From NCBI RefSeq assembly GCF_009296185.1, contig NZ_WBJR01000006.1, positions 62,001 through 126,000 of the forward strand: 64,000 nt of DNA. The letters run 5' to 3'. The position numbers and the translations under genes were made by a program. Shown in pieces: positions 5,483 through 47,448 of this stretch (its first letter is position 1; each line of letters begins with the position of its first letter). The notes below the pieces were generated by a model. The model was not told the DNA's origin. It searched no databases and saw only the letters and a list, made by a program, of their open reading frames with translations. The DNA comes from Hydrogenovibrio sp. JE_KL2 (GTDB lineage Bacteria; Pseudomonadota; Gammaproteobacteria; Thiomicrospirales; Thiomicrospiraceae).

Positions 5483-5773
5483 ATGAATATCAAACCTTTG
5501 CATGATCGCGTTGTAGTTCGCCAAGTTGAAGAGCAGAAAGAATCTGCTGGTGGTATTTTGCTGCCAGGTTCTGCGCAAGAAAAAGAAAATCGTGGTGAAG
5601 TTGTTGCGGTTGGTCCAGGTAAAGCTGCGGATAACGGTTCGATTATCCCTATGACTGTGAAGGTAGGCGACAAAGTGCTTTTCGGCCAATACTCTGGTCA
5701 AGAAGTAAAAGATGACAACGGTCAAGCGTTGAAAGTAATGCGCGAAGACGACATCATCGCCATCATTGATTAA
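5483..5773 (+). CDS. groES: co-chaperonin GroES
   Basis: Ten-kDa lid of the GroEL folding chamber, active in the cytoplasm. The 96-residue protein begins [13 protein letters not shown] and has the mobile loop around [15 protein letters not shown] (17-31). A TAGGAG-type ribosome site precedes the ATG. It is the first gene of the CIRCE-controlled operon, with groEL 71 bases downstream. Confidence 0.98.
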
Positions 5774-5832
5774 TGATTGGATAGTGCACTTTTAGAATTG
5801 TCTAAAACATTTGAACAAACAGATTTAAGTAA

Positions 5833-44278: not shown

Positions 44279-44328
44279 CATACTCTCACCACACCAACAA
44301 ATTCAAATTCCAAAGTGAAATTGAATTA

Positions 44329-44381
44329 AAAATCTGCCAGGTTGGGTGGGTACTCAATCGACCCCCAACCTGGTAGATTTT
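44329..44381. repeat. inverted pair of the 18-bp dispersed element after ychF
   Basis: AAAATCTGCCAGGTTGGG (44329-44346) and CCCAACCTGGTAGATTTT (44364-44381) with a 17-base loop. The stem has a single G-T pair and ends in a T-run, so it should terminate the rplY-pth-ychF transcript. Confidence 0.82.
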
Positions 44382-44466: not shown

Positions 44467-44543
44467 GGCTACATAGCTCAGCTGGTTAGAGCACATCACT
44501 CATAATGATGGGGTCCCAAGTTCGAATCTCGGTGTAGCCACCA
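44467..44543 (+). tRNA. elongator tRNA-Met (anticodon CAT)
   Basis: A 77-base cloverleaf, nearly identical in plan to E. coli elongator tRNA-Met. Acceptor GGCTACA/TGTAGCC, anticodon loop CTCATAA with CAT, T-loop GTTCGAATC, encoded CCA. Its last 14 bases form the start of an integration site: the 3' end is repeated exactly at 47402. Confidence 0.97.
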
Positions 44544-44576
44544 TATTTTAAAAGCCGTCTTTATGACGGCTTTTTT
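44530..44576 (+). repeat. attL: 47-bp direct repeat covering the tRNA-Met 3' end
   Basis: The tRNA 3' end and the terminator after it (stem AAAGCCGTC/GACGGCTTT, 44549-44577) are repeated without mismatch at 47402-47448. This is the footprint of a tyrosine-recombinase element that integrates at a tRNA 3' end and restores the gene. Confidence 0.93.
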
Positions 44577-45829: not shown

Positions 45830-46933
45830 TTAAGAATATAATGGGAAATCGTTAGATTCTTGAGTTAATAATTTAAGTAGTTTGGGGTGTAAAAATAACT
45901 TGTCTCTTCCCATGTTTATTTCTTTTAAAACACCAATTTTGCAAAGTTCTTGTAAGTAGTTTGATGCTGTTTGTCTTTGTGCGATTTCGGCATCTATGAG
46001 GTTTTGTATTCTGCAATATGGCTGATTGAATAGAACCTCTAGAAGTTCATAGCTATATTGTTTTGGCATTTGAGCTTTTATATATTTCTTTGTGTGCAGC
46101 ATTAATTTATCAATTGCATTGATCTTTTCTAGAGTCCAATTAGAGGTATCCTCTACGGCAGTCAGCATGAATAAAATCCACTCTTCCCAGTTTTGATCTT
46201 TAGTAACAGATAGTAATAATCTGTAGTAGTCGTCTTTGTGCTCAATTATGTATCTACTTAGGTATAAAATTGGTAAATCAATGAGTTTTTCTTGTAGCAA
46301 GAATAAGCTGTTTATGACTCTTCCAGAACGGCCATTGCCATCACTAAAAGGATGAATTGCTTCGAACTGGTAGTGCGAAATCGCCAGTTTTATCAATGGG
46401 TCTAAGTCTATATCTGAATGTATAAACTTCTCCCAGTTTGATAGTAACTCTCGTATTACGGCTTCTCCTTCTGGTGGTGTATAAATGGTTTCACCTGTTC
46501 GGCTATTTGCTAAAACAGTACCAGGCAGCTTTCTAACCCCCATGTCTTGATCTTTTATGATGCTACAAATTTTTATGGCAGTATTTGCTGTTAGGGGTCT
46601 TTCATTTATATTTTTATAACCCTGAAATAATGCTGTTCTATATCTTAGAGCTTCCTTGGTTGCCGGGTCAGCGCTGTTATAGTTGTCTGAAAATTGGAAT
46701 AGGCTATCTTTTGTAGTTACGATATTTTCTATTTCGGAAGAGGACTGCGCTTCTAATAGAGGTAGAGTATTTATGAGAACCGATTGGTTTGGCATTTGTT
46801 TAGCAGATTGATTTAGCTGTGCTAAAGCAGTTCTGGCAGACGTTACTTTTTTTAGGATGACCTTAGTTTCTATATCGTGTGTTATAGGTAATGTCGGGAT
46901 GTCGTTATATGGAGTTTCAGGATTCCAAGCCAT
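45830..46933 (-). CDS. Fic-family protein AMP-transferase (class II) with winged helix
   Basis: Likely transfers AMP from ATP to a Ser/Thr/Tyr of a target protein. The 367 residues have a Fic_N region (about 20-75), the Fic core with the full active motif HPFSDGNGRSGR (H194-R205), and a C-terminal winged helix (about 295-355). The inhibitory helix motif S/T-x3-E-N is S65-N70, before the core, which defines class II; E69 should block ATP until relieved. A GAGG ribosome site supports the start. The winged helix and the upstream repeat array suggest autoregulation. Confidence 0.9.
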   Translation of the reverse strand: MAWNPETPYNDIPTLPITHDIETKVILKKVTSARTALAQLNQSAKQMPNQSVLINTLPLLEAQSSSEIENIVTTKDSLFQFSDNYNSADPATKEALRYRTALFQGYKNINERPLTANTAIKICSIIKDQDMGVRKLPGTVLANSRTGETIYTPPEGEAVIRELLSNWEKFIHSDIDLDPLIKLAISHYQFEAIHPFSDGNGRSGRVINSLFLLQEKLIDLPILYLSRYIIEHKDDYYRLLLSVTKDQNWEEWILFMLTAVEDTSNWTLEKINAIDKLMLHTKKYIKAQMPKQYSYELLEVLFNQPYCRIQNLIDAEIAQRQTASNYLQELCKIGVLKEINMGRDKLFLHPKLLKLLTQESNDFPLYS

Positions 46934-47042
46934 ATTTTGTACCTCAGCATTTAGGTGTTTAGTTTCTTGATGAGGTTATTATGTTTATATTTTTATTTTT
47001 TGTAAATATATTATGGTTTTGTATTTATAAAATTAAAAAATA

Positions 47043-47279
47043 TAAACATATATAAACAATATGTTTATATGATAACTATATAGTAAGAACATGTTTACTA
47101 AGTTGAGTTTTCTAAACATATATAAACAATATGTTTATATAATAACTATATAGTAAGAACATGTTTACTAAGTTGAGTTTTCTAAACATATATAAACAAT
47201 ATGTTTATATGATAACTATATAGTAAGAACATGTTTACTAAGTTGAGTTTTCTAAACATATTTACACTGTATGTTTATG
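47043..47279. repeat. three 70-bp tandem repeats plus a partial fourth, upstream of fic
   Basis: Units start at 47043, 47113 and 47183 with an exact 70-base period; they differ at one visible position (G or A about base 29). A diverged partial fourth is at 47253-47279. Each unit holds the inverted repeat TAAACATA ... TATGTTTA (9-base gap) and a near-palindrome GTAAGAACATGTTTAC. A further half-site, TATGTTTATA, is at 46980, nearer the fic start. There are no variable spacers. It looks like an operator array. Confidence 0.85.
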
Positions 47280-47401
47280 AGGTCTCTATCATAGTAATAA
47301 TTATTGACGGTATTTGTAACGGTATTACAGGCTTACTAATTAACTAAATATAATAGAAACAATATAATAGAAACAATATAATACGTTAACTTTGTGAATT
47401 A

Positions 47402-47448
47402 CGGTGTAGCCACCATATTTTAAAAGCCGTCTTTATGACGGCTTTTTT
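47402..47448 (+). repeat. attR: second copy of the 47-bp tRNA-Met repeat
   Basis: Identical to 44530-44576, but not preceded by a tRNA body. It marks the distal edge of the island and includes a copy of the tRNA terminator. Confidence 0.93.

Follow-up and report, generated by a model that had tools for sequence, protein, structure and literature searches.

Class II Fic proteins with a C-terminal DNA-binding domain can act on their own genes: CccR of Yersinia pseudotuberculosis, for which the class II inhibitory motif and a C-terminal helix-turn-helix (HTH) domain are described, is reported to repress its own promoter via inverted repeats (PMC9755527). The SoFic proteins are presented in PMC12249575 as a one-gene phage defence, widely distributed in defence islands. 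EcSofic, studied there with the antitoxin AS1, is described as a dimer that is toxic on leaky expression; the wild-type gene could not be cloned behind a single lac operator, which the authors read as leaky toxicity. They propose control by auto-inhibition, dimerisation, AS1 and contacts of the C-terminal domain, and call activation elusive; the main text of that paper nowhere uses the terms HTH, winged or DNA-binding. Here, a tandem array upstream of a SoFic gene (fic) is analysed in 64,000 nucleotides of Hydrogenovibrio sp. JE_KL2 (assembly GCF_009296185.1, contig NZ_WBJR01000006.1, positions 62,001-126,000 of the forward strand), a stretch referred to below as the window. This array is very probably the operator of SoFic, which would repress its own synthesis from half-sites near the promoter.

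A preliminary description of this DNA reported a 70-bp tandem palindrome array upstream of fic, and the array is indeed there: Tandem Repeats Finder places it at 47043-47278 (period 70, 3.4 copies, 96% matches), upstream of an intact fic gene on the minus strand (45830-46933). Neighbouring full units (1 to 3) differ at 1 base in 70. The 70 bases that start with the partial fourth copy, and extend beyond the array end, show 33 differences, and the palindrome at 47253-47277 is still in register despite this divergence. All four matches to the pattern TAAACATA-N(7-11)-TATGTTTA in the 2.44-Mb genome lie inside the array (reversed control pattern, 0), and a genome-wide search found no second copy of the whole array. 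Each unit carries the palindrome already described, but its content is richer than that: there is also a third and a degenerate fourth half-site, and further half-sites lie on the fic side. The features are listed below, with template scores that are explained in the following paragraphs; G001 is the nearest relative.

45830-46933, minus strand: fic (SoFic, 367 amino acids), with Fic_N, Fic and SoFic-like_C domains (NF046030, Pfam, PADLOC SoFic)
45878-46105, minus strand: C-terminal winged-helix domain, residues 277-352 (PF21248, E 6e-34)
45938-45976, minus strand: putative recognition helix, residues 320-332, with T322 and N325 (AlphaFold model, co-variation)
46978-47006, minus strand: likely fic promoter, TTTACA-N17-CATAAT (10/12 consensus matches)
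46982-46987, minus strand: TAAACA half-site overlapping the -10 hexamer (score 8.2), the fic-ward limit of half-sites
47022-47027 and 47003-47008: two weak fic-proximal half-sites (scores 1.7 and 1.8; in G001, 8.2 and 6.9)
47043-47112, no strand: 70-bp unit 1
47113-47182, no strand: 70-bp unit 2
47183-47252, no strand: 70-bp unit 3
47253-47278, no strand: partial unit 4, a 25-bp palindrome with a diverged centre
47043-47067, 47113-47137, 47183-47207 and 47253-47277, no strand: 25-bp palindrome TAAACA-N13-TGTTTA
47092-47097, 47162-47167 and 47232-47237, minus strand: third (single TAAACA) half-site of each unit (score 6.9 each)
47073-47078, 47143-47148 and 47213-47218, plus strand: degenerate fourth half-site, ATAACTAT (score -3.9 each)
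46982-47277, no strand: whole putative operator array, in register with the family spacing

The half-sites follow a rule found before SoFic genes in general. The training set comprised the best 80 of at least 582 SoFic loci, close relatives (Halomonas, Xanthomonas) included; up to 300 bp before each gene were taken (23.6 kb in total), and the sample sets used throughout may have species in common. The half-site TCGACA, or TGTCGA in the opposite orientation (F and R, respectively), is found 310 times in these upstream regions, a density of 13.1 per kb, compared with 0.59 per kb over the remainder of the same loci. The commonest adjacent spacings are F-N13-R (68), R-N15-F (42) and R-N5-F (32), and the order R-N15-F-N13-R-N5-F-N13 makes up a 70-bp repeat. 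The strict succession R-N15-F-N13-R-N5-F has 51 upstream matches, distributed over 46 of the 80 loci, and none in 462 kb elsewhere. Records with the spacing are titled as Gamma-, Beta- and Alphaproteobacteria-type organisms, Verrucomicrobia, Planctomycetota and Acidobacteria, and the arrays of the loci examined hold about 3 to 17 half-sites.

A template was written with period 70, offsets 0, 21, 40 and 51, and base weights from the 80 loci, the window and G001 being left out of the weights. Over the training loci it scores at least 18 in 74, at least 20 in 72 and at least 30 in 67. In 1,390 overlapping windows from non-upstream parts of the loci the mean is 8.5, and the only two above 20 both lie over a second copy in locus L081. 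Among the Fic genes examined the association is specific to SoFic: none of 44 frames of other Fic genes (43 genes, since the second frame of L008 and that of L031 are one gene on the same stretch) exceeds 13.0, three of them having less than 140 bp of upstream sequence. An array accompanies 12 of the 13 strongest NF046030 matches of a class-wide search (window included), and all seven plasmid stretches examined, out of 257 plasmid records with a match, score 43-95. The preliminary description had asked whether the array is absent beside close homologues; it is present there. As a separate observation, the second copy in L081 (5427-5495, 84%) repeats the SoFic operator region before a small open reading frame (ORF; 5562-5804) in the same locus as SoFic, and this ORF looks ParD-like by eye.

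The window scores 62.9 with this template, against a mean of 8.4 for 60 shuffles, none of which comes as high; G001 scores 47.4, again reached by none of 60. The window array is long, with half-sites at the template offsets in 16 positions (47003-47277), 11 of which score above 3. The fit depends on the exact spacing: at period 69 or 71 the window score falls from 63 to 16, and shifting two template offsets by up to 4 bp brings it to 8-32. The units carry TAAACA in place of the TCGACA of most relatives, and exact TCGACA or TGTCGA words are present in neither the window nor G001 (97% identical), which has a shorter upstream region composed of the words found in the window. Both forms stand side by side in the plasmid arrays L166 (Pantoea) and L171 (Cedecea), and one SoFic protein therefore probably accepts TAAACA as well as TCGACA. 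The preliminary description had taken 70 bp for seven helical turns, with all sites on one face of the DNA. This is not supported: at 10.5 bp per turn, 70 bp amounts to 6.67 turns, and thus successive units do not lie on one face; the 21-bp R-to-F step corresponds to two turns.

The half-sites also overlap promoters. When 67 loci are aligned on the N5 pair nearest the gene, their consensus reads TTGACA-[TGTCGA N5 TCGACA]-TAaRcT, the N5 pair occupying the 17-bp spacer of a sigma-70 promoter. To judge from this consensus, the pair sits where a repressor would shut the promoter. In the window the likely promoter lies at the fic-proximal N15 pair, with half-sites overlapping both hexamers, and TTTACA and CATAAT are both found in G001 too.

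The protein encoded by fic belongs to the SoFic family, with a full-length NF046030 score of 603.5 bits (curated cut-off 550). In an alignment of 11 sequences, its Fic motif HPFSDGNGR (residues 194-202) is intact and fits HPFxDGNGR, while the N-terminal motif SSSEIEN is likewise intact and fits S-x-x-x-E. S-x-x-x-E is the inhibitory motif of class II Fic proteins. An AlphaFold model based on an alignment of 11 SoFic sequences (mean predicted local distance difference test, pLDDT, 76) matches SoFic crystal structures with a Z of 36, and its residues ~275-364 match PerR/Fur-type winged helices (Z about 8). The window Fic protein is thus a SoFic, a one-protein anti-phage AMP-transferase whose activity is predicted. 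The PDB titles of the best 50 entries include no SoFic-DNA complex (9tb0, 9tc4, 9tch, 9tcl and 9vjc being considered by name only).

That SoFic itself reads the sites is indicated by co-variation. In the 76 loci where two or more half-sites could be read, the first base of the half-site (T or not) was compared with each protein column. R at position 325 ranks first (phi 0.83) and A/T at position 322 second (phi 0.75) among 730 residue tests, which covered 367 columns; both positions fall within model helix 320-332. Proteins combining A322 with R325 have non-T half-sites in 17 of 18 loci and all other combinations have T in 57 of 58 (phi 0.93), T being retained with R325 and T322 (3 loci) or with A322 without R325 (6 loci). 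A tree of the catalytic part shows 6 changes in one trait and 8 in the other, and none of 5,247 simulations of independent traits on this tree attains the phi of 0.93 found for the pair. Residue 325 also came first in a preceding run with four site classes. Because residues 325 and 322 best track the first base of the half-site, SoFic would be the protein that reads the sites and represses itself, and the autoregulation by Fic's own winged helix proposed in the preliminary description is strongly supported by comparison, through the SoFic-specific sites and this co-variation. The link between recognition-helix residue and half-site base is a ready-made candidate specificity code. For TAA-type half-sites (5 of the 76 labelled loci), too few to test, no distinguishing recognition-helix residue was seen. 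Four Xanthomonas loci (L135, L139, L143 and L145) have TGTTNN-type half-sites and an altered recognition-helix region, GVTRQTAARHL.

Several observations weigh against autorepression from this array. Of the 80 training loci, six (L109, L130 and four from Xanthomonas) fall short of a score of 18, although three of these four Xanthomonas loci retain the exact spacing of the cores with altered bases; the strict four-core pattern is missing from 34 of the 80; and L047, a partial NF046030 match, scores only 9.1. The N5 pair has a degenerate R half-site in every one of the three window units, as it does in G001, and the strict pattern is consequently absent from both. The likely promoter of both lies at the N15 pair, unlike the family, and neither has an N5 pair within the promoter spacer; moreover, a promoter scan gave 9 promoter-like sites against 5.0 in shuffles (standard deviation 2.7), which makes the window promoter match weak on its own. 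The template was written after the window had been seen, its spacings being those counted in the 80 loci alone. Finally, residue 322 is outside the 20 columns listed in the four-class run, and that run preceded the choice of the two-class labels and of the residue pair, so that the first rank of residue 325 is the cleanest evidence.

From these comparisons we infer SoFic binding, repression, cooperativity and release on phage infection. A SoFic dimer would present two winged helices, each engaging a single half-site, which is TAAACA here and TCGACA in most relatives. The N15/N13/N5/N13 spacing, repeated every 70 bp, leaves room for several dimers, which would line the promoter region and keep RNA polymerase out. 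Adjacent half-sites are most often N13 apart, yet 52 of 69 runs scoring at least 30 open with R and close with F, which favours R-F pairs as the span of one dimer. Such negative feedback would hold toxic SoFic at a low level, and a drop in free SoFic, or the stripping or outnumbering of the sites, would lead to a fast rise in transcription.

The same sites elsewhere in the genome could extend this control to other genes. JE_KL2 has 18 N13 TAAACA pairs with at most one mismatch, 4 of which make up the array, while the reversed control gives 21, so that there is no excess; in G001 there are 9 against 6, with one exact pair beyond the array at C1:441122. The TCGACA pair with at most one mismatch exceeds twice its reversed control in 5 of 11 SoFic genomes and not in 6. 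The respective counts are 102/8 in G199, 45/11 in G177, 33/12 in G287, 17/3 in G034 and 17/0 in G178, the pair counts including the arrays and the control being a crude one that differs in word composition. Exact TCGACA pairs number 10 in G199 (five in the array) against 0. With this excess in 5 of 11 genomes, other species may have a small SoFic regulon.

A more speculative proposal, which we hold to be rather unlikely, is that the array acts as a DNA 'antitoxin', SoFic being stored inactive as a chain of dimers on its own promoter DNA. The winged helix would be kept apart from the catalytic domain while the chain is bound, and phage attack on the chromosome or competition from incoming DNA would strip the chain, freeing the toxin and opening the promoter at once. 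If so, array length would set the stored toxin dose.

Simple autorepression by SoFic has in turn to be weighed against another regulator, encoded by the host or the island, which would bind the sites and control SoFic, for example on phage infection, SoFic itself being no reader. In keeping with this, DNA binding by SoFic is stated in PMC10628234 as not demonstrated to date. However, the same spacing is found across several phyla with no common regulator evident, and the bases of the sites follow SoFic's own recognition helix, so that this explanation seems improbable.

Neutral tandem duplication of an AT-rich promoter (a variable-number tandem repeat), with one real site and passive copies, appears less probable still. 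Recent amplification is plain from the three nearly identical units, and template positions are about half as numerous in G001 (8) as in the window (16). Nevertheless, diverged copies hold their half-sites in register, both in partial unit 4 and in G199; since the 17 template positions of the G199 array keep the 70-bp spacing although the spacers differ, this spacing seems to be kept by selection, beyond recent copying. The weakest proposal, also raised in the preliminary description, is that the array represents replication iterons or a partition centromere remaining from a former element: tandem repeats are typical of such sites, and fic and the array lie inside a 2.9-kb island bounded by a 53-bp tRNA-Met-end repeat, but a Pfam and NCBIfam scan of three island ORFs found no Rep or Par protein among them, the pattern accompanies SoFic genes on chromosomes and plasmids alike, and the family half-sites are inverted with a promoter-locked spacing, which leaves this origin hardly credible.

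The AT-rich island lies between two direct copies (96%) of the 3' end of tRNA-Met with its terminator:

44524-44576, plus strand: repeat copy 1, tRNA-Met 3' end and terminator, one island end (tRNA-Met at 44467-44543)
47396-47448, plus strand: repeat copy 2, the other island end

It contains a YmfI-like phage ORF (below the model cut-off), a 109-amino-acid ORF, fic and the array. The 109-amino-acid ORF, downstream of fic, has a partial match in G001 and none in the loci compared from other genomes (E up to 1). Between the array and the island end, AATATAATAGAAAC is repeated in tandem (2.6 copies, 47347-47383). A search of a phage collection gave one match, at 46% identity, and an Rfam scan of six loci returned tRNA only. 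In G003 a similar repeat lies about 3 kb from its tRNA copy. Outside the island, between ychF and tRNA-Met (~44324-44381), there is a dispersed repeat with dozens of copies, on both strands, in this genome and in G010. The plasmid SoFic genes in L166, L167, L169 and L170 adjoin integrase or recombinase genes, the recombinase gene overlapping the end of fic in L169 and L170. Members of another Fic subfamily (L005, L006 and L008; 47-49% identical) have a G+C-rich, hairpin-like leader ending in CCCTGYGNGGGG just upstream of fic; it is weaker in L009 and has no Rfam match.

The window protein shares family and domain order with the SoFic of PDB entries 3eqx, 3zcn and 3zec and with EcSofic as described, and the proposed operator would add a transcriptional layer to the controls suggested for EcSofic. 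Comparable arrangements are found in several other systems. CbFic2 of Coxiella burnetii is a Fic protein with a C-terminal winged HTH that is reported to bind DNA; the assays described used random DNA sequences, and PMC10628234, as far as its available sections go, names no specific site. In AbiEi/AbiE type IV toxin-antitoxin operons, as described, a defence toxin is under negative autoregulation via inverted repeats. There the repressor is the antitoxin, whereas SoFic would combine toxin and repressor in one protein. CccR is the nearest parallel: its inverted repeats, too, lie near the -35 and -10 hexamers, and its repression is stated to need a dimer (PMC9755527). It is, however, described as a type VI secretion system effector, in contrast to SoFic as a resident anti-phage protein, and its operator is given as a single pair of 10-bp repeats, AGATAATCAT, 26 bp apart with a 46-nucleotide footprint (PMC9755527), whereas the SoFic array has several half-sites at N15/N13/N5/N13 in a 70-bp repeat. 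A SoFic operator is not named in the titles and opening lines of abstracts among the matches listed from the open-access literature, preprints aside. If the toxin does read a conserved operator, this would explain how a mobile toxin gene reaches a new host with its own brake, and would open a direct route to how phage infection switches SoFic on. Autorepression by a toxin is already known from CccR; what the SoFic loci appear to add is an operator that is conserved, has multiple sites and moves along with a mobile defence gene.
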